64,000 nucleotides of DNA from Sipunculus nudus (lineage: Eukaryota > Annelida > Sipuncula > Golfingiida > Sipunculidae): the NCBI GenBank assembly GCA_026874595.1, contig CM049310.1:49691558-49755557 (forward strand). The letters run 5' to 3'. The translations under genes and the position numbers were made by a program. The notes under the pieces were generated by a model. That model searched no databases. It was not told the DNA's origin and saw only the letters and a list, made by a program, of their open reading frames with translations. Every line of letters begins with the position of its first letter. Positions within the stretch are counted from its first letter, which is position 1. Of this stretch, positions 9,101 through 52,900 are shown piece by piece.

Positions 9101-12100
9101 CCGACGCAGCTGACTTTGGCACTGTACAAATCTTACCTGACAATTGAACCCCGACTTTATATGTTAAGATTCTGTTGTTATTCCTTAAATATAAGCATTG
9201 TATTAAAGCTGTCCAATTATTTTTACGTTTATATGGTTAATCTAGTTTATAAACCACAAAAGTACAACGGGGACGTTGGTTGTAGTCTTGCATCGCAAGG
9301 AATGATACTCAAATTCCAAATGTATCAGGTGGTTGGGACGCCTCCGAAGTCTGGGTGCGACCTATATTATGGACTTTTCCTGAAACTAAACTTGAACGGC
9401 TATTCCCCAGGGGGATCCTAAAAGTCAGGGTGCGACTTGTAATAAGGATGCAACTTCTGCAACGACTTTTACGGTAGAATGAATAACTTTATTGTACCTG
9501 CAAAAGACGAGTGTTACTGGGTGTATGCTCCCCCCGGGGAACTGAGAGAAGCTACAAGAATGAACAGGCCCAATACCAATAAGGCAAAGTGTGAAGTCAA
9601 ATGAGACTTACAGAGTGATATCTGACTATAATGCCAACCTTTAACTCTACATTTATTGTAGTGAAAGAGAGCCTTTTTAATTTACAGTTCAGAATGACAA
9701 GGTTTATCATGCCAACTTTGTATTTATTGTTCCCTGCTTCTGTGGCCTTTGCGGAACGGGGGACATTGATTTAGGTTTCTCTGTCCCTCTATCTGTCCAT
9801 CTGTCAGGTTTTCATTTTCTTAAATATTGTCCAATTTCATTCAAATTTGGGTCAGTGAATGCTCTAATGCATACCTTGGTTGGGATTGATTTTGGAGTGT
9901 CTGTCAGAAAATTTATTATCACCAGCTCCATAACAAACAAAAATTTTCCCTTTGGTTCCCAATTTACAACAAAATTTATAACATATTAAGACATCTTTAG
10001 GGGACAATGAAAACTAAAACACAGGCACTATGACAAGTGGAGACATCTTCAGGGGAAAATAAAAACTAAAACATATTTAGAAGGCAAGCATGAAGATCAC
10101 AGGAAGCTAAGTAACAAGATGAGGAAGCGGGGGACATAAATTCCACGAATTTGCTTGTTATTTACTTATTTAACAAATTTAGTGCAATATTATATTTTGA
10201 ACTTAAAGGTCAAATGAAAGAAGATCTTTATCTGATTTTCATGATCTTTGTGTGTTCAAGTTTCTGTGTCTGATCAGGTGATTACAGTATGAGGAGTGGT
10301 TATTATGTATTTTGTTTATATTCAGCTTAAATATTTCAGATAATTTAAAAGCATTAAAGCTAAAATAAATGGAGTAATGTATGGGCAGAAATAATATAGT
10401 TGGGATATCTCCAGCTAGTGGTAGAGGACTGCCAGACAAAACAACAAATTGGGAGGAAAGCTAGATAAACAAAAAGACAAATTGATAGAAAAGAAAGTAT
10501 GATTTGGGTGTCTTTGAATTATGACTGTTGGTCAGACTCTTTAAAGCTGAAAAAAGCTTGAATTTTACAAATATATTTATGGTTTTCCGAGTATCTCACC
10601 TACCCTTAACTTACTTTTCCACAAACTTTAATTCTTTAATCTCCAGGTAAAACTTTTTTAATATCCATAAAAATATAGTAACGAAAGGTGATAAGGTATT
10701 TTGAATGACCAGAAAATATTGGAACTTGGCATCAAAGGGTTAATTTTAATCTTCTTAATGATAACATAGTGAGCAAAGGTAGTACTAACTTATTTAAAAA
10801 AACAATACTTGGTTTAGAGAGATAACATCCATAGTTTGAGAACATAAAATTGCCCTGGATTAAGTAAGATCAGTCATTTACCAGTAGGTGTTATATTTAA
10901 AATTGCTTCATTTGAACATAGCTAAACATATTACTATTTTACTAAAAATAATAATATTAGCTTATGATATTCTGACCTGAAAATAGTTGTGATATTTTGA
11001 TGGTAGATTTGATAGGTAATGAACTTCTAGAAATTTAACACAAACACACAACTAAAAGAATATTTATCAATTAAGCAGCATTTGATTAAATACACCATGG
11101 GTAGTAAACATATAAAAATATTTTCTGAGTCTGTGCATTTTTAAATCATTGAAAAATCAGAAGTTCCCCGATTTCTTCTCTAGTCTATCGAAGTCTATCA
11201 CCAGCTATTCTTTATGTTATTACAGTTATATCAGTTATACATCTTTATCATATACTATGTGTTTACAGTTTGGGATTTTTCTCACCACGGAAGCCACAGG
11301 ACCCTGATTCTTATTCTGCAGTCTCAGTGGCCTCCCAAGACAGCCTTGGAACTGCCGAGGAGCGAATCAGCATCGCCAGCGCCCCTGACTTGTTGTCTCC
11401 ACCAAGGACGCGGGTAGGTTAACGCACTGTCACCATCAAATCTTAGAGTACAGCTGCCCACATTCTCATGTTTGGTCACTGATTTTAAGATATAACTGGA
11501 GTTCCTACTGTAACACATCTTTTAAAGCATTCTGCACACACAGTTCATTGGGATCTCCTGTGAGGAGTTAAGTTTATGAGAATCCCCATACGATTGGTTT
11601 AGAGGTAGATGCATAGAGTTTATGAGAACCAATTCTGATTGGTGTAGAGAAAGGTGAATAAAGTTTATAAGAGCCCCTATCTGATTGGTTTATAGGTAGA
11701 TGTATAAAGTTTATGAGAGCCTCCATCTGATTGGGTTATCGATATATGAATGAATTCTATGAGAATCTTCATCTGATCAGTATTGAGATAGCTGAATAGA
11801 GTTCATGAGAGCCCCTATCTGATTTGTGTATAGGTAGTTGAATAGTATATATGAGAGCCCTTATCTGATTGGTTTAACCATAGATGATTCTGCTAATCAA
11901 ATATCCTAAGTAGCGTGGCATGTTTTTGCATCTACTGTGTGATGCAAATGAAGGTAAAGGCCAAGGAGGTTAATTTACATAGATCCCTGTCGAATTTGCA
12001 TTGATGTTCATGCTTTTTTGGTGGCAGTAACTCTCCCACTTAACATTTGGAGTGAGAAAAAAATGGAGGCTGGATGATTCAGGCTTACTAACCTGTTGGC

Positions 12101-17383: not shown

Positions 17384-17484
<101 letters not shown>

Positions 17485-17928
17485 GCAACAACATAGGAGT
17501 CTTTTAGCCAGGCAGGCATCAAACTAACTATGAAGCAATCTCAGTTCTTGTATATATTTATTTTCATATTTTATGTAGTGTATATTATTGATATTTCATA
17601 TGATCCCATTCCAAAGGCCAGAGTCACTAAGTATACAGATACATAGACCTGTACAGCCTTATGATACAAAAACCCTACAGCAATACTGATGAACCTCTGT
17701 GAGCAGTGCTGAGTGTGTGTTTCACAGCTTGTGCACCGGATTGATGGTGCTGCAGTTTTGTTTCTTACAAATGTTGAAAAAAATATTACTTGTGTTTGAA
17801 TCAAAGTACACGGTGTTACTTATATAAACACATTTTACTGTGTGCTGAAGTGATCAAATATATATTTCAACATATTTATTTATATATATTTATATAAAAA
17901 TATTATATATATATACATATTATAATAC

Positions 17929-17934
<6 letters not shown>

Positions 17935-18000
<66 letters not shown>
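17935..18000. repeat. (TA)n microsatellite
   Basis: A second pure TA run of about 66 bp, bounded by degenerate TATATTT sequence. It directly abuts the MITE copy starting at 18011, whose TA target site may have been supplied by this tract. Confidence 0.97.
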
Positions 18001-18005
<5 letters not shown>

Positions 18006-18010
18006 GTATA

Positions 18011-18323
18011 TAAGGCCAAAAAAAAGGTTTGGTTCTCAGGAACTTTTTTTAGAAATCAATGCATGCAGGTATTTTTTTTTATCCTTGTTTTTGTATGTTT
18101 CTATAAAGATGTCATATGACTAGGGAAAAGCATGATAATAAAAGATTTTTTTCACTAAACAGGTAAAAGCACTATATAAGAAAGGAAATTTTATCAAATT
18201 TGTAATGAAGTTTCTATATTTGTATGTAAGTTTCTATTGAAAATCAAAATCAAAATTTTTTGATGCAGGGGATTAAATTGACGCAGGTGGTGCCTGAAAA
18301 CCATACCTTTTATTTTTGGCCTA
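18011..18323 (+). mobile_element. MITE copy 3 of the TAAGGCC family
   Basis: The left end TAAGGCCAAAAAAAAGGTTT then GGTTCTCAGG is mirrored at the right by CCTGAAAACCATACCTTTTA then TTTTTGGCCTA. It is about 313 bp, has no coding capacity, and is in the same orientation as copies 2 and 4. Confidence 0.8.
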
Positions 18324-22100: not shown

Positions 22101-25100
22101 CTAAATGCATTGCAGAAACGAATACACATCTATAACTGTATTATAGAATTTGGTTATGAAACTGCCCCCGGTGTGGTTTCACTAATGTGGATCAATATGT
22201 GAATTGTTGTAGTGTGATCAGATTCAACAGATTTGGATTTTGAGGCAATCACTGTTTAATATTCAATACTGTATACAATGAATATGGGTGTAATGTGATC
22301 ATGCCTCAAGTGGCCTCATTCATAATTTGTATAAGTGCTCACTTCAGTTTTATGATGTTAGTATGCATTGTGATTTCACTGTGCCATGTCACTCTGGGCC
22401 AGAAAAATGTGTGGAGTATGTGTTTTCTATCGAAATACTAGCTTTATGAAGCATAGATGGAAAAAAAACCATAATATCAACTGCTTACTGAATTTTAATT
22501 GGTGATTGTATGCATAAAACTGGTGTGATATAACAAATTTGATTGATAAGAGCCCTTTTCATCAAATCTTTAATATTAATAAATGAAAAATTATATGACA
22601 TTTAGTATAATCTATAATAATGTTCATGAGAAGCCTAAATTCTTAAACAATTGAAATTGCAATTTTCAATTTATTATTTCCACTACTGGTACATATTTAC
22701 ATATATCCCAAATAAAGTGTGAAATATGTTGGACAAGTTTCTGTATTACTCAAGCAGGCTCAGATGTATATGTGCATCAGTATCACATGAATTCAATTAA
22801 AAGTTAATCTCACATTGTGCAAATTTGATAGAAAATGCAATTGTAACACAAAATGTGGTCATATATACATTATTACAATACACCATGACTATACATAAAA
22901 ACAAAAAGTGGAACACCCCCCGGAAATGGACAGTTTTGATGTGATGGTCACTGTTTATTTATGTTTTCATTTAAAATTTGATGATGGGCAGAATGGTCAC
23001 ATATCTAACCCTGCCTTGTTGCCAGCACAAACTGAGCGGTGTTTGTCTATGGTGTTTGTACCAACTTTATTGACTGTTTAAATATGTTGTTTCTTGTACA
23101 TTCTGGTAACTGTATATTGATATTATTACAAATTGTAATATTATTTAATCAAATATTCACCTTTCACTGCAGAATAATTTGTAAAAAGTATAAAGGGAAT
23201 AAACTAAAAAATATGTTGTTTACATGGTTCTTTCCTGTTTTGTATACAGATATTTGAGTGTAGGTTGACTGTTGACTCTGTGTATTAGGAGATTTGGGTT
23301 TGAATCTGACATTTGTAGGTCTTTGCATTTCCTCACCCATAAGAAGAATAATACTTCCTTTACTATGTGGACCCATGTACAGATATAAAAGAAACCTTGC
23401 AATCTTAATTGTATCAGCCAAAACAAATTTTTTTGGATACTATTATTGTATCCCCAGACATAGTTGGGATACTATGGTTTTACGACGGTCCCGCCGCCAC
23501 TGCCGTCGCCGCCGCAGAAAAACCTTGTGAGCGGGATAACTCAAAAAATATTTCACTGATCTTTTTCAAACTTTACATTTGTATAGATACAGGTAAGGGG
23601 ACGAAGCCTTTTTAAAATAGGGTCATGACCTTTGCTAGGAGAGTGACCTTGACCTTGAATAGGTCCATTTTTGCTGAAAATAAAACAAATTCTTAAATAT
23701 CTCAAGTAAGCTTGCATGGACTGGTCCAAAAATCAAGGTGACCGAAGATCTTGGATAGCCTTGTGATATATTGGAAACTGGTGGCGCCATCTATTTTCCT
23801 TTTCTTGTTTTTACACCTTTTAATACCCCCATAATTGCCACTTGACAGTACTGTAAGCATTATAAGTCAAAAACTAATGAACAGATTTCTTTCATATTAT
23901 GCACATGTAGAGAGATGGGTTATGGGATGAGGTCTATTTACATTTGGGTCATGACCTTTACCATGAGAGTGGCCTTGACCTTTAATGTGTCCATATTTGG
24001 TGAAAATCACACACCTCTTATGATATCTCAAGTGTTGATAGCCATATGGATTTCAAACGTGACTTATGTATTGCCCACCACTAAGGTAAGAACCCTATAG
24101 GTTCTAGGGTCATGAGGTCAAAGGTCAAGGTCGCTGGACTAGCATCTTAAAAGATACTATGGATGCATTTTAAGCCAAACTTTCATTCCAGGTCTTCCAT
24201 CTTGAATGTATAGTTCACTTGCCAATAGTGGATGATCCATATCAATTTTGGAGTCACAAGGTCATAGGTCAAGGCCACAGGAGCTATCTGTCAAAAAATT
24301 AGTTTCTGGATGATAATTCCTGCTTTTATTGATGTATGGATTTCAAACTTGACTTATACATGTCCCATTGAAAAAGCAAGACTCCAATTGATTTTGAGGT
24401 CATGAGGTCAAAGGTCAGGGTCACAGGACACATCTTTAAAAAGATTGTGGATGCATTTTCAGCCAAACATTTCATCTCAGACCTTTTATCTTGCACATAT
24501 AGTTCATCTGCCAATAGAGGAAGACCCCTATCAATTTTGAGGTCACAAGGTCAAAGGTGAAGGTCACAGGAGCCATTTGTTCAAAAATTAGTTTCTGGAT
24601 GATAATTCCTGCTTTTATTGATGTATGGATTTCAAACTTGACTTGTATATGTCTCATTTCAAAAGCAAGACCCGAATGGATTTTTGGGTCATGAGGTCAA
24701 AGGTCAAGGTCACAGGACACATCTTTGAAAAGAATGTGGATGCATTTTCAGCCAAACAATTCATCTCAGACCTTTCATCTTGCACATATATTTCACCTGC
24801 AAAGAGTGGAAGACCCCTATCAATTTTTAGGTCAAAGGTGAAGGTCACAGGAGCCATCTGTCCAAAGATTAGTTTCTGGATGATACTTCCTGCTTTTATT
24901 GATGTATGGATTTCAAACTTGATTTGTATATGTCCCATTCGAAAAGCAAGACCCAAATTGATTTTGGGGTCATGAGGTCAAAGGTCAAGGTAACAGGACA
25001 CATCTTTAAAAAGATGTGGATGCATTTTCAGCCAAACATTTCATTTCAGATCTTTCATCTTGCACATATAGTTCAGCTGCCGAGAGTGGACGACCCCTAT

Positions 25101-25469
25101 CAATTTTGAGATCAAAGGTGAAGGTCACAGGAGCCTTCTGTCCAAAGATTAGTTTCTGGATGATACTTCCTGCTTTTATTGATGTATGGATTTCAAACTT
25201 GACTTGTATATGTCCCATTCGAAAAGCAAGACCCCAATTGATTTTGGGGTCATGAGGTCAAAGGTAAAGGTCACAGGACACATCTTTAAAAAGATTGTGG
25301 ATGCATTTTCAGCCAAACAATTCATATCAGATCTTTCATCTTGCATATATAGTTCACCTGCCAAGAGTGGAAGACCTCTATAAATTTTGAGGTCACAAGG
25401 TCAAAGATGAAGGTCACATGAGCAATATGTCAAACAATTAGTTTCTGGATGATAATTCCTGCTTTTATT

Positions 25470-27070
25470 GATGTATGGATTTCAAACTTGACTTGTATAT
25501 GTCCCATTTCAAAAGCAAGATCGAATTGATTTTGGGGTCATGAGGTCAAAGGTCAAGGTCACAGGACACATCTTTCAAAAGATGTGGATGCATTTTCAGC
25601 CAAACATTTCATCTCTGATCTTTCATCTTGCACATATAGTTCACCTGCCAAAAGAGGAAGAACTCTATCAATTTTGAGGTCACAAGGTCAAAGGTGAAGG
25701 TCACAGGAGCCATCTGTCCAAATATTAGTTTCTGGATGATAATTCCTGCTTTTATTGATGTATAGATTTCAAACTTGACTTGTATATGTCCCATTGGAAA
25801 AGCAAGACCCGAATTGATTTTGAGGTCATGAGGTCAAAGGTCAGGGTCACAGGACACATCTTTGAAAAGATTGTGCATGCATTTATAGCCAAACATTTCA
25901 TCACAGACATTTCATCTTGCACATACAGTTCCCCTGCCTATAGAGAAAGACGCCTGTCAATTGTGAGGACACAAGGTCAAAGGTGAAGGTCACAGGAGCC
26001 ATCTGTCCAAAAATTAGTTCCCGAGATGAAAATTCAAGCTTGGATTAATATATGGATTTCAAACCTGACATATATGGCCCATCAATAAATCTAGACCTCT
26101 ATTGATTTATATTTAAAAAGTTGATGATCAATATCAATTTTGGGGCCAAAGGTCAAGGCCACAGGAGCCATCTGTCAAAAAAATTAGTTTCTGCATGATA
26201 ATTCCTGCTTTTATTGATGTATAGATTTCCAACTTGACTTAAATATGTCCCATTGAAAAAGCAAGACCCTAATTGATTTTGGGGTCATGAGGTCAAAGGT
26301 AAAGGTCACAGGACATCTTTAAAAAGATTGTGGATGCATTTTCAGCCAAACATTTCATCTCAGACCTATCATCTTGCACATATAGTTCACCTGCCAAGAG
26401 TGGATGACCCCTATAAATTTTGAGGTCACAGGTGAAGGTCACAGGAGCCATCTATCCAAAGATTAGTTTCTGGATGATACTTCCTGCTTTTATTGATGTA
26501 TGGATTTCAAACTTAACTTGTATATGTCCCATTCGAAAAGCAAGACCCCAATTGATTTTGGGGTCATGAGGTCAAAGATAAAGGTCACAGGACACATCTT
26601 TAAAAAGATTGTGGATGCATTTTCAGCCAAACAATTCATCTCAGATCTTTCATCTTGCACATATAGTTCACCTGCCAAGAGTGGAAGACCTCTATAAATT
26701 TTGAGGTCACAAGGTCAAAGATGAAGGTCACAGGAGCCATATGTCCAACAATTAGTTTCTGGATGATAATTCCTGCTATTATTGATGTATGGATTTCAAA
26801 CTTGACTTGTATATGTCCCATTTCAAAAGCAAGATCGAATTGATTTTGGGGTCATGAGGTCAAAGGTCAAGGTCACAGGACACATCTTTCAAAAGATGTG
26901 GATGCATTTTCAGCCAAACATTTCATCTCAGATCTTTCATCTTGCACATATAGTTCACCTGCCAAAAGAGGAAGAACCCTATCAATTTTGAGGTCACAAG
27001 GTCAAAGATGAAGGTCACATGAGCAATATGTCAAACAATTAGTTTCTGGATGATAATTCCTGCTTTTATT
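25470..27070. repeat. Higher-order repeat, copy 1 (1,601 bp)
   Basis: Landmarks in this block reappear exactly 1,601 bp further on: GATGTATGG 25470/27071, the GTCACATGAGCAATATG variant near 25417/27018, and the unit starts 26216/27817 and 26495/28096. I find only scattered single-base differences. Confidence 0.9.
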
Positions 27071-28671
27071 GATGTATGGATTTCAAACTTGACTTGTATA
27101 TGTCCCATTTCAAAAGCAAGATCGAATTGATTTTGGGGTCATGAGGTCAAAGGTCAAGGTCACAGGACACATCTTTCAAAAGATGTGGATGCATTTTCAG
27201 CCAAACATTTCATCTCTGATCTTTCATCTTGCACATATAGTTCACCTGCCAAAAGAGGAAGAACTCTATCAATTTTGAGGTCACAAGGTCAAAGGTGAAG
27301 GTCACAGGAGCCATCTGTCCAAATATTAGTTTCTGGATGATAATTCCTGCTTTTATTGATGTAAAGATTTCAAACTTGACTTGTATATGTCCCATTGGAA
27401 AAGCAAGACCCGAATTGATTTTGAGGTCATGAGGTCAAAGGTCAAGGTCACAGGACACATCTTTGAAAAGATTGTGCATGCATTTATAGCCAAACATTTC
27501 ATCACAGACATTTCATCTTGCACATACAGTTCCCCTGCCTATAGAGAAAGACGCCTGTCAATTGTGAGGACACAAGGTCAAAGTTGAAGGTCACAGGAGC
27601 CATCTGTCCAAAAATTAGTTCCCGAGATGAAAATTCAAGCTTGGATTAATATATGGATTTCAAACCTGACATATATGGCCCATCAATAAATCTAGACCTC
27701 TATTGATTTATATATAAAAAGTTGATGATCAATATCAATTTTGGGGCCAAAGGTCAAGGCCACAGGAGCCATCTGTCAAAAAAATTAGTTTCTGCATGAT
27801 AATTCCTGCTTTTATTGATGTATAGATTTCCAACTTGACTTAAATATGTCCCATTGAAAAAGCAAGACCCTAATTGATTTTGGGGTCATGAGGTCAAAGG
27901 TAAAGGTCACAGGACATCTTTAAAAAGATTGTGGATGCATTTTCAGCCAAACATTTCATCTCAGACCTATCATCTTGCACATATAGTTCACCTGCCAAGA
28001 GTGGATGACCCCTATAAATTTTGAGGTCAAAGGTGAAGGTCACAGGAGCCATCTGTCCAAAGATTAGTTTCTGGATGATACTTCCTGCTTTTATTGATGT
28101 ATGGATTTCAAACTTAACTTGTATATGTCCCATTCGAAAAGCAAGACCCCAATTGATTTTGGGGTCATGAGGTCAAAGGTAAAGGTCACAGGACACATCT
28201 TTAAAAAGATTGTGGATGCATTTTCAGCCAAACAATTCATCTCAGATCTTTCATCTTGCACATATAGTTCACCTGCCAAGAGTGGAAGACCTCTATAAAT
28301 TTTGAGGTCACAAGGTCAAAGATGAAGGTCACAGGAGCCATATGTCCAACAATTAGTTTCTGGATGATAATTCCTGCTATTATTGATGTATGGATTTCAA
28401 ACTTGACTTGTATATGTCCCATTTCAAAAGCAAGATCGAATTGATTTTGGGGTCATGAGGTCAAAGGTCAAGGTCACAGGACACATCTTTCAAAAGATGT
28501 GGATGCATTTTCAGCCAAACATTTCATCTCAGATCTTTCATCTTGCACATATAGTTCACCTGCCAAAAGAGGAAGAACCCTATCAATTTTGAGGTCACAA
28601 GGTCAAAGGTGAAGGTCACAGGAGCCATCTGTCCAAATATTAGTTTCTGGATGATAATTCCTGCTTTTATT
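27071..28671. repeat. Higher-order repeat, copy 2 (1,601 bp)
   Basis: This is the second copy of the block at 25470-27070, in direct orientation and immediately adjacent. A third, more diverged partial copy may continue from 28672 to about 29330, since the spacing 28672-29138 resembles 25757-26216. Confidence 0.9.
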
Positions 28672-29422
28672 GATGTATAGATTTCAAACTTGACTTGTAT
28701 ATGTCCCATTGGAAAAGCAAGACCCGAATTGATTTTGGGGTCATGAGGTCAAAGGTCAAGGTAACTTGACACATCTAAAAAAAGATTGTGGATGCATTTT
28801 TAGGCAAACATTTCATCTCAGACATTTCATCTTGCACATACAGTTCCCCTACCAATAGAGGAAGACGCCTGTCAATAGTGAGAACACAAGGTCAAAGGTG
28901 TAGGTCACAGGAGCCATCTGTCCACAAATAAGTTCCCAAGATGATAATTCAAGCTTGGATTAATATATGGATTTCAAACCTGACATATATGGCCCATCAA
29001 TAAATCTAGACCTCTAATTGATTTATATATAAAAGTGGATGATCAATATCAATTTTGGGGTCACAAGGTCAAAGGTCAAGGCCACAGGAGCCATATGTCA
29101 AAAAATTAGTTTCCGGGTGATAATTCCTGCTTTTATTGATGTATCGATTTCAAACTTGACTTGTATATATGTCCCATTGAAAAAGCAAGACCCCAATTGA
29201 TTTTGGGGTCATGAGGTCAAAGGTCACGGTCACAGGACACATCTTTAAAAAGATTGTAGATGCATTTTCAGCCAAACATTTCATCTCAGACCTTTCATCT
29301 TGCACATACAGTTCACCTGCCAAGAGAGGAAGCAAAAAGATTGTGGATTGATAGATGGAAGAAACAATAATTGCTTGCCAACTGTCAGTATATGCTGCTA
29401 AAAATGGGGGCCTATTCTTAAA

Positions 29423-29438
29423 GGGGGGGGGGGGGGGG
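29423..29438 (+). repeat. Poly-G run (16 G)
   Basis: Sixteen consecutive G lie beside the right inverted terminus of the family B element, a potential G-quadruplex. Confidence 0.97.
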
Positions 29439-29619
29439 CGTACTATGTCTGGGGATACTCTGGCACCTGCAGAAATGTCTAGTTTTTACCAGGTTCTGGA
29501 GAACTCCTCTGTGACTACTGGACCGATTTTTCTAAAACTTAACCCAGTTATCAGGTTACATGTGAACTGGTGCCTAACCATTTGGCGTTGACCTCTGACC
29601 TTTCCTCTATGCAGTGTGT

Positions 29620-30480
29620 CAATCTGTGTGTCAGTGTTTACATATTAAACCACATATCTTTGGACTCATTGACCCATCAGGCTGAAGTATTGCACCAGTG
29701 TAGCTTTAGGGTAGCTTTATATCATATAATTAACTGGTGGCGCCATCTGCAACCATTTTTGCGCAGTGTCCATCTGTTTGTCTGCCTTGGATTAAAATCA
29801 CTCCCATCTCTGCAGTAGTTTGACTAATTCACCTGAAATTTGGCATGCGGATACATCCTGAATGGCGTTCTTGATTTTATGACAGTGGCGCCACCTACAT
29901 TCATGTTCACGCTGCAGACATCAATGCTAATGTCTCCAGACTGGTTTGACGTATCTTCCTGAAATTTTGATTGTGTTTAGATCTCAAATAGCTCTTTATC
30001 AAACAAGAAACTGGTGGCGCCAGCTTGCATGGCGTCCATCTGTTCGTCTGCCTTGGGTTAAAATCACTCATATCTCTGCAGTGGTTTGACTAATTTACCT
30101 GAATTTTGGCATGCATATACATCCTGGATAGCTTTCTTGATTTTATGACATGTGGCACTACCTACATTCATGTTCAAGCTGCAGACATCCATGCTAATAT
30201 CTCTGGACTGGTTTGATGTATCTTCCTGAAAATTTGCATGTGATTAGATCTCATGTAGCTCTTTATCATACTCAAACTGGTGGTGCCACCTGCAACCATT
30301 TTTGCACAGCGTCCATATGTTTGTCTGCTGTTGGATAAAATCACTCCTATCTCGGCAGTGGTTTGACTTATCCAACTGAAATTTTGCATGTGTTTACATC
30401 TTGCATAGTTTCTCTTTCATATAGCAGGTGGTGCCACCTACAGTCATGTTTACGTGGCAGACATCCATGCTAATATGTAA
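29620..30480 (+). repeat. Family A tandem core (degenerate units)
   Basis: Units share GCAGACATC(A/C)ATGCTAAT, TGGTTTGA(C/T) and CTGAAATTTGGCATG. They carry TGGCGCC words with neighbouring monomers about 140 bp apart, as in the array at 48540-49830 but more diverged. Confidence 0.75.
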
Positions 30481-30845
30481 CACATCTCACTTCTATTTCC
30501 CCTTGCCACTCAATCCATGCCTCACTTCATCCCTCCTACTCTGATTTTGGCGGATACACGTAGTCTTTGTAGACTACACGTATTCTAGTTTTGGTGAGGC
30601 GTTTGCCATGTTCTCTCTCATTTAATAACAAAATGACAAGTATGCAATGCTGACAAGTTATGAAAGATGTCAAAGAGAAAGATTTGCAACTCTGTTGGCC
30701 CCCCAAGTGTGCATTTTAACTGCCAGCACCAGCTGTCCACATGCAAAGCAAACTTAATAAAAATAACATTTTCTTAGAAAAATTTCCTTAAACTTTGCTG
30801 AAACATGCCTCCTTGCAACCAAACTCCCTTCGGAGGTAGGTATTT

Positions 30846-47405: not shown

Positions 47406-48215
47406 TAACTTAGGTGTCAATACAGTAATGACAAAGACACAAAGATATTGGTGACAACAATGAAGCTGCTATTGGTTTGGGTGTTTCTTTTAAATGTATT
47501 CACTTGCTCGAGGAAATGAAATTAGATGGTACAGCACCAAAATTCACTACCGGTAAGCCTTTCTTATTTAAGATCTTTCATCACAGGAATAGTGCAAATT
47601 TAATTTGACATTTTGCCATACAAACACAACATGTGTATAATCAACTTATTGAACATCAAAGGTTTAGTAGCTATTTGTGTTAGAAAACCAGAAACTATTA
47701 TGACCTACTGCACCTAAAGCACCTGTTGCCTATATATGTACTACCACCTGTGTCCTATATACATAATTAGCACCAAGAAGTAAGTGTTACATTCTTATAA
47801 AATCCAATTATAAGCAAAGGTCTTGCAGCAGGTGTTTAATGTTTTTATAATCACACAGCATTAAGGCAATTAAGGATGTGGGTCAGACACTGTGAATGTG
47901 GGTCATTGGGTATCAGTTGTCATCTCTATGTTCACAGTAGTTTTTTTGCCTAATACAGTGCCTGGTTAATCCCTTTTCCTGGTTTTTCAAACACTGGCAT
48001 ACACAGCTCCTGTTGAGACCATTTCTACAGTTCTATTAAGTTGGAGTCAGTGTGATATAAAATTCTTTAATGTATAGCTCCTCTCAGATATATTCATGAT
48101 TATTTGTCAAAAATATTTCAAGAGTTTATAAAACAAGGATTTATTCAGAAATAATATGCCCATTACATTAATATTCATTTCCCAACTTCAAGAAAGCAAC
48201 ATCTTATCTCTTATT

Positions 48216-49957
48216 GTATCCGCCAAAACAGAGTTTTGCGGATACTATGTTTTCAGCTGGCCGCCGCCGCCGCCGCCGCCGCCGCGTAGGTTTCCGGAGA
48301 ACTCCTCTGTAACCACTGGGCGGAATTTTACGAAGACCAGGGATTATGTTCGGGTCACATGTGAACTGCTGCGCCCCGATTTTGTTTTGACCTCTGACCT
48401 TTCCTCTGTGCTCTGCGTCCGTTTGTGCGTCTGTTTCCACACATAAACCCACATATCTCGGGAACCGTTTGACGGATCAGGAAAATTTTTTCGCACAAAT
48501 GTAGCCCTTGGAGAGCTTTATAACATACACAAAAAATGGTGGCGCCACCTGCAACCATGTTTGCACAGTGTCCATCTGTTCGTCTGCCTTGGGTTAAAAT
48601 CACTCATATCTCTGCAGTGACTTGACTAATTCACCTGAAATTTGGCATGCGTATACATCCTGGATGGCTTTTCTGATTTTGTGACAGGTGGCGCCACCTA
48701 CATTCACGTTTACGCTGCAGACATCCAAGCTCATATCTCGGGAACCGTTTGACCGATCAGGAAAATTTTTTCGCACAAATGTAGCCCTTAGAGAGCTTTA
48801 TAACATACACAAAAAATGGTGGCACCACCTGCAACCATGTTTGCACAGTGTCCATCTGTTCATCTGCCTTGGGTTAAAATCACTCATATCTCTGCAGTGA
48901 CTTGACTAATTCACCTGAAATTTGGCATGCGTATACATCCTGGATAGCTTTTCTGATTTTGTGACAGGTGGCGCCACCTACATTCACGTTTACGCTGCAG
49001 ACATCCAAGCTCATATCTCGGGAACCGTTTGACCGATCAGGAAAATTTTTTCGCACAAATGTAGCCCTTAGAGAGCTTTATAACATACACAAAAAATGGG
49101 GGCGCCACCTGCAACCATGTTTGCACAGTGTCCATCTGTTTGTCTGCCTTGGGTTAAAATCACTCATATCTCTGCAGTGACTTGACTAATTCACCTGAAA
49201 TTTGGCATGCGTTTACATTCTGGATAGCTTTTCTGATTTTATGACAGGTGGCGCCACCTACATTCACATTTACGCTGCAGACATCCAAGCTCATATCTCG
49301 GGAACCATTTGACTGATCAGGAAAATTTTTTTGCACAAATGTAGCCCTTGGAGAGCTTTATAACAAACGCAAAACTTGTGGCGCCACCTGCAGCCATTTT
49401 TGCACAGCTCCTGTCTGTTTGTCTGCCATGGGATAAAATCACTCATATCTCGGCAGTGGTTTGACATATCTGGCTAAAAGTTTGCAGGTTTATACATCCC
49501 TGACAGCTCTCTTGATTTTATGACAGGTGGAGCCACCTGCATTCTAGTTTATGCAGCAGACATCCAAGCTCATATCTTGGGAACCGTTTGACCGATTCGG
49601 CAAAAGTTTTGCATGTGTATAGTTCTCACATAGCTCTTTATCATACGCAAAACTGGTGCCGTCACCTGCAACCATTTTTGCTTAGCGTCCATCTGATTGT
49701 CTGCCACGGGCTAAAATCACTCATATACATGTAGTGGTTTGACTTATCTGCCTTAAATTTTGCATATGTATATAACTGGGATGGCTTTCTGGATTTTGTG
49801 GTAGGGGGGCAACCTTCATACACAATTTGGCTGCAGACATCCATGCTAATATGCAACACTCTATTTCCCCTTGCCACTTTATCCATGCCTCACTTCACCC
49901 GTTCCACTCTGATTTAGGCGGATACACGTAGTCGCTTGTCGACTACCCGTATTCTAG
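48216..49957 (+). mobile_element. Family A Helitron/HINE (pearl-like) element, uninterrupted
   Basis: The 5' end folds on itself: GTATCCGCCAAAAC (48216-48229) pairs with GTTTTGCGGATAC (48233-48245), with one bulged C. A (CCG)n run follows at 48260-48284. The core is about four 280-bp tandem units. The 3' end has GGCGGATAC (inverse of the 5' start), a perfect 7-bp hairpin GTAGTCG-CTTGT-CGACTAC (49928-49946), then CTAG at 49954-49957 followed by TTTT. Subterminal inverted repeats, a microsatellite, a tandem core and a 3' hairpin with CTRR fit non-autonomous Helitron relatives known from molluscs. Confidence 0.75.
48540..49830 (+). repeat. Tandem core of family A: 280-bp dimers with GGTGGCGCCACC
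   Basis: CAGACATCCAAGCTCATATC recurs at 48718, 48998, 49278 and 49557 (period 279-280 bp), and the first two full units are nearly identical. Each dimer holds two monomers of about 140 bp, each ending near the 12-bp palindrome GGTGGCGCCACC or a one-base variant. Confidence 0.93.
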
Positions 49958-52900
49958 TTTTAAGAATGGCATAGGTTCCTTACAGATTACCCTTTGATAG
50001 CCCTTATGCAAAATAATGTCAAATTCTCGGGATTTGCTGGGAAAATATAGATGGTGACCCTCCTAAGGAAACACTTGGCATCTTCCCAATGTTTCAAGAA
50101 CAAAGACAGGCATCTTCCAGTTACTCTGTTTATCTTTCAGCAACTCTACTCAGAAAGTTTTGAACAAATTTTGATGAAAATATGTGTATGGTTAGGGTAA
50201 CATCCAAGGAAAAGTCCAATAAATTTTGGCAGTAATCTGTATCACTGTGTTAATATTTTTGCCAGATCATTCAATTGAAACCATCATTATTCATCTGTAT
50301 TTAAGGAACCTTAAGTGTAATTTCCAAACTGAGTGAGTGTGCACTGGTGTAAACAAGCAGGAGCTCTGACGGGAGAAACTACCCTGTGATGCAACCGTTG
50401 GAACCATGACACATTTCTATCAGCTTTGATTCAATTATTTCATGAGCTCACATAGCACACCCATCCTTTGATCAAGATCCTGGTAATACCATGATCTTGT
50501 GAGTTGTGACCCAGAATATTGGTGGAGGTAGGTGGTCTCTGAGTACTTTTTAGTGTAGAATCAGAAAGTAGCAATCCAGTCATTCATATTGGTATCAAAT
50601 TTCTGATGCTAAACATCTCTTTTCAATAATCCCTTTTTTTATCCAGGTATATTCACTGGATTTGTGCAATTATGAAATTAAAATTATACTTACATCAAAG
50701 AATAAAAACCACTTTAATGCCTGGGTAAAATATCTGAATTTTATCCATCACTAAAATTTAGGCTAATATACTATATAATTGACTCAGACATGAGTCTGCA
50801 AACATTCTGTCATATTTCTGTAATATTTATTAATATATATTGTTATATTTATATTCATATTTCATTCATAATCATTCATATTATGTAAATGAGCTATTTA
50901 CAAACTTGAGATCCCATGGTTATTAATGGTTCAACCTTAAAATTAAGAGGCCTCCGTCTCTGATGTTTCTGGTCATTAATGACCTTCAACTGCATCATAG
51001 GAAGAACGAAAGGTCACATGTTACGCTGACAGGGAATGCTTAATCATAAGTTTGTGTGGTTCTAAATGTTCCTTAAAATATACCCTGTTCAGTCTTTCTG
51101 ACGTAGCCGTGAGCTTTATCTTGCTATCCAGGCTGCTTATTATGTGTTAGCATGTTAGAGTGAGGCGGGTAATCCTGAGTCAAAATGAACTTGTAAATAT
51201 TTCATTCAAGAAGTCAATGATACATTCAAGCGATTGTGGGAGGAATTGTTGTCTAGACTAGCAGCACTAAACTCAGAGGCAAAATGAACACAGTACCACA
51301 GGCAGGATACAACACCTGAATATCAAATTAGTTAAAAATTATTAAAATATAACTCATTTCTATAATCCTGATCAAGAATTTTTAAATATATTACAGGACT
51401 GATGACAAATAGGAAAATCAATATTGCACTGTTTATCAAAACATTAAGTGTTTATAAAGTTTGATGTACTAAAGAAGACAATTCAACTTTCAGTTATGCT
51501 AAACTATAAATATCAGATTTGATTTTTGTCCAATATTAATATGAAGAACGAAGGGTATCTTTTCTCCCCTTTTTTTGGTAATAAAACCTTTTTCAGAGTG
51601 GAATAATGCAACATGATAATCTTTTATATATTTATTTTATACAATGTATATTTATGCCTTCCTTTAAATAAAATATTTATCTTTGTAGTCCATTGTAAAA
51701 TGTGCTATATAAAAAGGTTTCTGAATTCATTTTAATATACCAACTCACTTACAGGCTAACAAACAAAATGTCTTATTTTTGCAAACAATATTTTTCAGAC
51801 ATTAAAGAATAAATATTAACTGATGAGACAATAAATTTTTTCATTTATGCTGTGGTTGAGTACCAATGTGGATAAAAAATATTTTTTCCTCACAATGTTA
51901 TATGATGTCAAGCTTCAAAAAGAGATTAATTATATTTTACATGAGTAACACCCTTCCTTTCTTTTGTACAGGATATCACAGTCTACTTGTTTAATTGCAG
52001 GGACAGGATTGAGACCTAATAATCTGATTTATGGTTTAAATCTGATTAATCTCGCAGTGTGAGATGCTATTCTGGGCTTACCCCTCAATGCAGTTAATTA
52101 ATCAACAATCACACCTACCTGTGCACCTTCCCTGCATCCCACCCACACTTGTTAGTTATAAATAATTTTCTAACACTTGTTCACACCGGCTGCAATTTAC
52201 ATGTAAAATTTTCACTACCTTTTCCTTTTCTTCAAAATATCATACACAGGCCTCAGTGTCTGATTTTATGTAATTTCCTAGGACTTCCTTTGTTATAACA
52301 AAATCATGACCTATGAGACCACCTGTAAAATGTTTTTTTTAATTACCAATCATAAAATCAAAAGAAAATATAGCATATCAGGAAGTTTTACTGAAGAAAT
52401 ATAATTCAATACACTGTTATAACTCTTTGAATATTTTCTTGCATGAAAACCTTCCCAAAAAGTAATTTTAAAACTGAAGTTGTTATCTAATTTTAATAAA
52501 TATAATTAAAATCACAGATAACATCTTCTGTTCACAAAAAAATGAAAATTTTGCATTTGCAGAATGTGTATTGTTTAAAATAAAAGTCTTTGTAACACTC
52601 ACTAAACACATGAACAGTAAGCAGATAAAAAATATTCAAGGACAGCTATAAACCATTAACCAATGAACAGGCATGTAGTGCCTTGGACACAGAGACTGTA
52701 AATTGACCAATACAAGAAAATAACAGCGAAACATTCCCTATTCATGTCAGAAACAAGTCTTCTGATCTGTTTTGTGGCTTTTCAAGGATTTTTTATCCCT
52801 TTTTGTTTAAAGTTCTATTTTATGATATAAACACCTTGTTAAACAGTATAGTTGTGCAGGACATGCACCAGATAAGTGCTGTCTGTAGCCGGCTAGCAAA

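Follow-up and report, generated by a model that had tools for sequence, protein, structure and literature searches.

Structure of the family B element

The window analysed here (64,000 nucleotides of Sipunculus nudus contig CM049310.1) contains an element, termed family B, that is almost certainly a non-autonomous Helentron (HINE). It lies on the forward strand between 23448 and 29484, with edges uncertain by 1–2 T and the end placed from the homology of 16 other copies and from the subTIRs. The 5' subTIR, GTATCCCCAGACATAGT (23448–23464), is a perfect 17-nt match to the 3' arm, the arrangement that characterizes a HINE 5' end, and it is adjoined by a short inverted repeat, GGGATAC/GTATCCC (23466–23472). 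Then follow a G+C-rich, GTC/GCC microsatellite-like stretch seen by eye in the window copy (23484–23516), a left unit (23517–24044), a tandem array of period 289 (24045–29340), the 3' subTIR ACTATGTCTGGGGATAC (29442–29458, forward strand), and a terminal part with a shortened palindrome and a CTAGTT end (29459–29484). The microsatellite (again by eye in the window copy) and the central tandem repeats keep a fixed orientation to the frame, which supports membership in the HINEs.

The original prediction placed the element at 23448–29458, between two perfect 17-nt inverted arms. The arms do bound that span but lie subterminally: in other copies the homology extends beyond the right arm as far as CTAGTT, which puts the 3' end here at about 29484. 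For this reason, and because no target duplication was seen, a DNA transposon whose 17-nt TIRs form its extreme ends was rejected. Seventeen family B copies could be bounded at both ends, and by eye none has a target duplication. TT closes the left flank in all 17, CTAGTT forms the end in 16 (one has a variant), and the palindrome GGCACC-N3-GGTGCC is present in 16, the window copy having the shortened form.

The family B 3' end has 4,866 matches in the 1.43-Gb genome at up to 3 mismatches, compared to 0 for the control, and array sequence was present in 10 of the 10 3'-end loci retrieved from these (the first on C1). When the window and loci L011–L052 were scanned for HINE structure, 20 candidates emerged – 14 with a family B start (six of them listed individually), 5 with a family A start, and 1 that is probably spurious.

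The family B element is nested inside a second HINE, of family A, and the interrupted host copy is recognisable. Its 5' end is at 23411–23447 (23403–23443 is 85% identical over 41 bp to 48209–48248), and the remainder is at 29485–30590, the end being set by eye (29494–29659 is 72% identical to 48292–48458). Another family A HINE is found at 48216–49959. Both are on the forward strand, and each has a DR1 on the reverse strand, at 29589–29601 and 48388–48400 respectively.

Direct repeats in the central array

The array consists of 17.1 copies of a 289-bp unit, itself made of two alternating, diverged halves, M1 and M2, and an AGGTCA direct-repeat box is present in each half. In M2 the box is a DR1 followed by a DR0 (a complete example, AGGTCAAAGGTCAAGGTCA, is at 24694–24712), while in M1 it is a DR2 variant, followed by AGGTGA and AGGTCA (for example AGGTCACAAGGTCAAAGGTGAAGGTCA, a DR2 plus a degenerate site, at 24540–24566, forward strand like the M2 example). 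Exact copies of AGGTCAAAGGTCAAGGTCA occur six times in the array and of AGGTCAAAGGTCA 13 times. AGGTCA is found 86 times on the forward strand of 24045–29340 and never on the reverse, with exact spacings of DR1 (14), DR0 (6), DR2 (11) and DR7 (25); DR3–6 and DR8 are absent from this interval. The left ca. 600 bp of the element has five half-sites with the opposite orientation, on the reverse strand at 23626, 23644, 23650, 23952 and 23976. Among the copies seen, array length ranges from about one unit to more than 15 kb.

These counts bear out the prediction of about 17 dimers with dozens of half-sites in about 5 kb. The prediction of a DR1 in every unit of ca. 145 bp was right as to a dense array with 14 exact DR1, but the two halves differ, M1 carrying DR2 and M2 the DR1 and DR0. 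The element is also enriched over shuffled background: as a whole it has 91 half-sites on both strands and 14 DR1, while 500 dinucleotide shuffles averaged 4.4 half-sites and none had a DR1. A single unit is the fairer test, as the array multiplies its own content, and DR1 appeared in 2 of 5,000 one-unit shuffles. By these shuffles and by the genome-wide DR1 count given below, AGGTCA direct repeats with a 1- or 0-bp spacer exceed chance. A coding function for the array was rejected, since a period of 289 is not divisible by 3 and no stop-to-stop frame among those listed inside it exceeds 117 aa.

Conservation of the boxes

One half of the refutation test set out with the original prediction concerns sequence: DR1 words should be better kept than the rest of the monomer. 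For M2 this holds, its DR1–DR0 19-mer ranking first in conservation among the 288 windows of the unit; the M1 box is equivocal (rank 55 of 288). None of the 19 columns of the M2 box was more than 5% variable, compared to 82 of 242 other columns, and identity was 99.3% versus 93.2% (a difference of +5.4 to +6.6 points by bootstrap over 20 arrays) in a sample of close copies picked by similarity to the window array. In the M1 box, 5 of 27 columns were more than 5% variable, and in the window's own copy this box was below average, at 0.879 versus 0.927 for the rest. The M1 and M2 half-units agree in 44 of 55 columns at the box end and in 40 of 97 over the remainder.

A neutral history is one way to account for the box. 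An AGGTCA(A) slippage repeat would have formed in the monomer of an ancestral satellite, HINE amplification and array homogenisation would have multiplied it, and descent or transfer as filler DNA would have carried it from one family to another, with no protein reader that benefits the element. The box does resemble a short tandem of a hexamer, and homogenisation may contribute to the conservation of the M2 box. Against this, the M2 box is the best-kept part of the unit while its flanks diverged; this and the comparisons among families described below make the neutral history rather unlikely.

Genome-wide counts

There are 65,466 DR1 in the genome, compared to 251 for a reversed control; for contrast, DR4 occurs 2,002 times (370 in the control). 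The prediction of a mobile element that multiplies DR1/DR0-type motifs is thus supported by the thousands of 3' ends and by this excess. The excess can be explained by how many copies families A and B have, so taken alone it is no evidence of selection, and it fits the neutral history. With A and B masked, 4 DR1 and 3 DR0 were left in 169,792 bases, the DR1 at L021, L028, L030 and L041 (L030 and L041 are copies of one repeat). Enrichment of the AGGTCA hexamer outside A and B was rejected, with an observed/expected ratio of 1.04 and a rank of 1494 of 4093 in this masked sample, which was drawn from the window and from flanks of retrieved loci rather than at random from the genome.

The family A word that includes the DR1, AGGTCAGAGGTCA, occurs 21,401 times, compared to 13,163 and 10,597 for two adjoining 13-mers. 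Among 60 family A copies picked by the first adjoining word, 46 retained the DR1 exactly, and the second word was retained in 35. A flanking word stands beside only 46 of the 100 family A-type DR1 listed. The family A DR1 differs from the family B box in both spacer and context, which argues against the neutral history.

Any motif search for receptor targets here will be overwhelmed by the approximately 65,000 DR1 sites of the genome, which are largely transposon-borne among those looked at. With 65,466 DR1 sites facing 67 exon matches to the zf-C4 domain, titration of receptors by the arrays is conceivable, and arrays retained as a receptor sponge or as enhancers of host genes would have precedents in human Alu repeats, in which DR2 sites recruit RARs (PMC1785376) and which bind HNF4alpha (PMC3252374), according to the available text of those reports. 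The spread of the arrays over many contigs resembles the dispersal of an element, however, and retention for the benefit of the host is quite improbable.

Similar boxes in other repeats

Boxes that resemble those of family B were found in three other repeats: C (L021), E (L030) and F (L080). Repeats C and E were not called by the structural HINE scan, and the F locus lies outside that scan; by eye repeat C resembles a HINE, and no such claim is made for E or F. HINE-framed arrays holding the box were also located in two other assemblies by a scan with the box. This gave six contigs, three of which (L054, L055 and L059) were taken as such elements and three (L056, L057 and L058) left unassigned. 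As the box was the query, only the frames and arrays of these three, the frames being located by eye, are unselected. HINE frames are present in L054 and L059, whose ends are unlike and whose monomers measure 147–158 bp; in L055 no match of at least 7 nt between 5' and 3' arms was seen. The scans of viral collections gave 0, 1 and 0 contigs; L053 has a G+C content of 0.61.

In the comparison among families, 60 of 63 matches fall on the box. The box matches join B, L054/L055 and L059 only; A, C and the left unit of family B had no match on the box. An extended block common to B, M1, E and F fits descent, as the neutral history would have it, and the ca. 45 bp that B and F share may be plain descent. 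Central repeats of oyster HINEs likewise appear in similar form in different frames, and the reverse (PMC7492417, in the part available). On the other side, B, L054 and L059 match in little except the box. Recurrence of a similar box in otherwise different repeats suggests selection, and the box has probably been kept by it.

Candidate readers of the box

DR0 and DR1 are bound by nuclear receptors of the NR2 type (RXR, HNF4, COUP-TF), and NR5-type receptors bind TCAAGGTCA. The host encodes candidates, with 67 zf-C4 exon matches. Compared to the PDB, five of these exons had as best matches RXR, HNF4, RXR, NR5A2 and NR5A2. NR6A was absent from the best matches of these five, the first of which matched RXR; this germ cell nuclear factor is a DR0 binder in the available text of PMC10909835.

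Of the readings weighed here we favour that the box is a cis-module recurring among HINEs, and most likely a putative host nuclear-receptor site under selection on the element, and we regard this as having about an even chance of being correct; that a nuclear receptor is the putative reader is an equally balanced matter. The box would be a binding module for a host protein, retained by selection on the element, and the likeliest reader would be one or more host DR0/DR1-binding receptors of the NR2 or NR5 type. Such a receptor may be recruited where transposition must happen, in the germ line or early embryo, a timing that is proposed tentatively. There it would keep the element DNA open or transcribed for a Helentron Rep/helicase acting in trans, with array length setting the dose and effects on host genes as by-products.

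Rolling-circle Rep proteins bind short direct repeats, and the box might instead be a set of iterons to which the Rep/helicase (or endonuclease) of the Helentron itself binds in order to load rolling-circle replication, with a coincidental likeness to receptor sites. The genome has at least 143 Helitron_like_N matches, seven of them in open frames of more than 2,200 aa; the box is present in several HINE-framed elements; and a trimer at spacings 1 and 0 exceeds the need of a dimeric receptor. However, one would expect iterons to vary together with the ends, and AGGTCA is constant though the ends differ among A, B, L054 and L059. The half-site is also found in either orientation relative to the element, and the parts of the flanks covered for 2 of the 143 candidate partners showed neither A nor B ends. 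Iterons are an unlikely explanation, slightly more so than the neutral history.

The receptor-type box offers a testable answer to the question of why HINEs carry satellite-like arrays and keep parts of them, namely host-factor recruitment by a DNA transposon. A broader form, possible though doubtful, is that the DR1–DR0 box is of ancient origin and almost obligatory as an internal cis-element in animal HINEs, a licence for opening or copying in receptor-expressing germ cells. If so, the box would outlast the turnover of monomers and termini, and tens of thousands of receptor sites would be expected in the genomes of bivalves and other invertebrates, their number governed by competition among transposons and not by the regulation of host genes.

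Comparison with known elements

Additions to the original prediction are the identification as a HINE, the insertion within family A and the similar boxes in other repeats. A literature search found no report joining Helitron and nuclear receptor, though papers naming only those two could escape it; none was found with any of five long box strings, and shorter strings were absent among the matches listed.

Dispersal of receptor direct repeats by mobile elements has a parallel in human, where 90% of 108,582 consensus DR2 are in Alu, with HNF4alpha sites in Alu as well (PMC1785376, PMC3252374, available text); here the count is 65,466 DR1. The same texts trace Alu DR2 largely to CpG deamination within a non-consensus motif, while the family B box is part of the consensus of a tandem repeat in a DNA transposon, and receptor binding has been shown for Alu sites, while those of family B are known from sequence. 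Drosophila ISX similarly disperses sites for a host complex, that of dosage compensation, and these are called functional and refined by selection in the available text (PMC4384637); the family B sites are predicted, and their role putative.

Family B belongs to a kind of rolling-circle element that is already known. With bivalve Cg_HINE/Pearl-type non-autonomous Helentrons, as far as the available text describes them (PMC7492417), family B has in common the 5' subTIR and inverted repeat, a GTC-rich microsatellite in the same place as in oyster HINEs, the 3' subTIR, the palindrome, central tandem repeats (there mostly 140–180 bp), and insertion at TT without target duplication. That text mentions neither AGGTCA boxes nor nuclear receptors. 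Family B also differs from the elements described there in its unit, of period 289 with two diverged halves, and in one array of more than 15 kb.

Direct-repeat array of family B

The tandem array of the family B element (24045-29340), a HINE or non-autonomous Helentron, has a period of 289 bp and contains 86 AGGTCA half-sites on the + strand and none on the – strand. The exact direct repeats (DRn, with n the spacer in bp) comprise 14 DR1, 6 DR0, 11 DR2 and 25 DR7, and no DR3-6 or DR8 was found in this interval. DR1 appeared in none of 500 dinucleotide shuffles of the whole element, which averaged 4.4 half-sites, and in 2 of 5,000 one-unit shuffles. The dense array of the original prediction stands out from the shuffled background. 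A DR1-type repeat in every unit of about 145 bp had also been predicted; this goes too far, as the family B unit is made up of two halves that have diverged – M2, which carries GGGTCATGAGGTCAAAGGTCAAGGTCAC, and M1, which carries AGGTCACAAGGTCAAAGGTGAAGGTCAC instead. The window also holds extended arrays of the AT dinucleotide, as well as a 46-bp tandem array (17388-17482, 17872-18012, 11571-11887).

Element anatomy

Twenty regions of the genome that surround the window array's best matches were fetched. Sixteen of these, plus the window, provide 17 bounded copies; L011, L012, L015 and L027 lack a complete frame within the fetched stretch. The left flank ends in TT, followed by GTAT(C/T)CCCAGAC, in all 17. 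Directly inside the 5' end are an inverted repeat of the subTIR and a G+C-rich microsatellite-like stretch. The right-hand homology spans the 3' subTIR and a palindrome and stops at CTAGTT in 16 of the 17 (L013 deviates). The window copy has a shortened palindrome and ends near 29484, not at 29458 as first proposed. The same anatomy is reported for the oyster Cg_HINE non-autonomous Helentrons (PMC7492417).

The shortest array is about one unit (L032). At the other extreme, array matches cover two overlapping fetches throughout (L011 and L012, G000:C7:82899002-82914468), ca. 15 kb with no element ends within the fetched stretch – perhaps a standalone satellite-like array. In two sister elements (L028:6360-7962 and L033:2145-3032), a left unit of ca. 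330 bp with opposite-strand half-sites is itself tandemly repeated.

Copy number and nesting

The window is located on contig C5 (49691558-49755557) of the host genome (153 contigs, 1.43 Gb). In this genome, the family B 3' end was found 4,866 times with at most 3 mismatches (reversed control, 0), and the first exact 3'-end matches on contig C1 (L031-L040) had array sequence in 10 of 10 cases. Two spacings were counted genome-wide: DR1 (AGGTCANAGGTCA) occurs 65,466 times vs 251 in the control, and DR4 2,002 times vs 370. The DR1 of family A, AGGTCAGAGGTCA, occurs 21,401 times vs 44. Among the matches listed, 7 of 12 DR1-G loci have family A context and 5 do not (L042, L043, L045, L051, L052), several of which look like diverged family B units. 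The copy number of families A and B suffices to explain the genome-wide DR1 excess.

Family A is the second HINE type, within which the window copy of family B is nested: the family B flanks 23403-23443 and 29494-29659 match 48209-48248 and 48292-48458. It has ends of its own (TGTATCCGCC) and one DR1 per window copy, on the – strand. The two window copies are 72% identical over 167 bp, and the longest stretch that they share without a mismatch, 21 bp as counted by eye, includes the DR1. Two family A flanking words occur 13,163 (first) and 10,597 (second) times genome-wide. In the first 6.55 Mb of C1, copies picked by the first word kept the exact DR1 in 46 of 60 and the second word, farther away, in 35 of 60; left-flank copies having the second word (n = 44) retained the DR1 in 39 and the first word in 35. 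The DR1 is thus kept better than the flanking words, by a modest advantage. In the reverse direction, the first word lies beside 46 of 100 DR1 among the matches listed. A second motif found in different repeats, the palindromic GGTGGCGCCACCTACA, is common to family A (48216-49959) and repeat C (L021:7441-7900).

Conservation of the box

Conservation of the box, the AGGTCA direct-repeat cluster of each half-unit, was measured in 20 arrays (the 17 bounded copies plus L011, L015 and L027), from which 184 units were cut, 170 of them distinct within their own array. With equal array weights, identity to the consensus is 99.3% for the M2 19-mer, 96.5% for the M1 block and 93.2% for other columns. 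Ranked among 288 windows, the M2 box is first and the M1 box 55th; with all half-site columns pooled, 6 of 287 circular shifts do as well or better. Better keeping of the box than of the rest of the monomer thus holds for M2 but not clearly for M1, which in the window copy is less conserved than the rest (0.879 vs 0.927).

Family B is a mobile element of high copy number in which the M2 box is the best-kept window of the unit, and similar boxes occur elsewhere. Selection probably holds the box; its candidate reader would be a nuclear receptor, and the benefit could fall to the element in the germ line.

Similar boxes in other repeats

With A and B masked, a non-random sample of 169,792 bases (window plus fetched flanks) shows no excess of the AGGTCA hexamer (1.04) and retains 4 DR1 and 3 DR0; ca. 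0.03 DR1 are expected from the reversed DR1 control. Two of the DR1 are copies of one repeat (L030, L041) and the others lie in L021 and L028; the DR0 are all in L021, two in tandem units 301 bp apart. Box-bearing blocks also lie ca. 330 bp apart in L080, the flank of a Helitron gene; one aligns over ca. 45 bp with family B M2, its third half-site being AGGCCA.

A single scan of genome_contigs (84,980 species) with the box 20-mer gave six contigs. L054 and L055, filed in a Bacteroidetes MAG named Glo_2, have tandem monomers of 147-150 bp; L059, from a Bathymodiolus brooksi gill-symbiont assembly and probably mussel DNA, has monomers of 158 bp. Their HINE-like frames were located by eye and then measured: the 5' and 3' arms match over 11 nt in L054 and 10 nt in L059, and no match of ≥7 nt was found between the L055 arms. 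L055 is 90% identical to L054, and the ends of all three differ from those of A and B. The box itself was the search word for these contigs, so the evidence they add is limited to their frames, their arrays and how unlike the remainder is. The remaining contigs are L058 and two that look bacterial, L056 and L057; L056, binned as Bacteroides, has a GGGTCAAAGGTCAAAGGTCAAGGTCAC stretch at 1557-1589.

B, A, C, L054, L055 and L059 were compared by blastn (E 0.01), with the L054–L055 pair excepted. Of the 63 matches, 60 fall on the box, every one of these linking B, L054/L055 and L059, and the remaining 3 are the GGTGGCGCCACC motif common to A and C. The box may have spread neutrally, with descent or exchange. 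Alternatively, it may serve as iterons for Rep; the half-site stays constant, in either orientation, across elements whose ends are unlike, which argues against iterons.

Host receptors and Helitron enzymes

There are 67 zf-C4 exon matches in the host genome, of which 20 exons were read; two, L061 and L065, we take to be COUP-TF and NR2C. Five exons compared with PDB gave as best matches, in order, RXR, HNF4, RXR, NR5A2 and NR5A2. NR6A, a DR0 binder according to PMC10909835, was not the best PDB match for any of these five.

HINEs carrying satellite arrays are already known; what appears new is a receptor-type box, of predicted sites, inside them. Alu is a likeness, as a mobile repeat for which receptor sites were known earlier (PMC1785376 and PMC3252374). 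A multi-term search, which papers with only two of the terms would escape, found no link between HINE arrays and nuclear receptors, and "nuclear receptor" occurs 0 times in PMC11136912 and 0 times in PMC8268682.

Helitron_like_N has at least 143 matches in the host genome (e.g. C8:80139053-80139664, C13:66180677-66181288), and neither A nor B ends were found in partial flanks of 2 of these loci. Seven matches lie within open frames >2,200 aa, so intact autonomous Helitron-like elements may be present, and these genes are a possible enzyme source.
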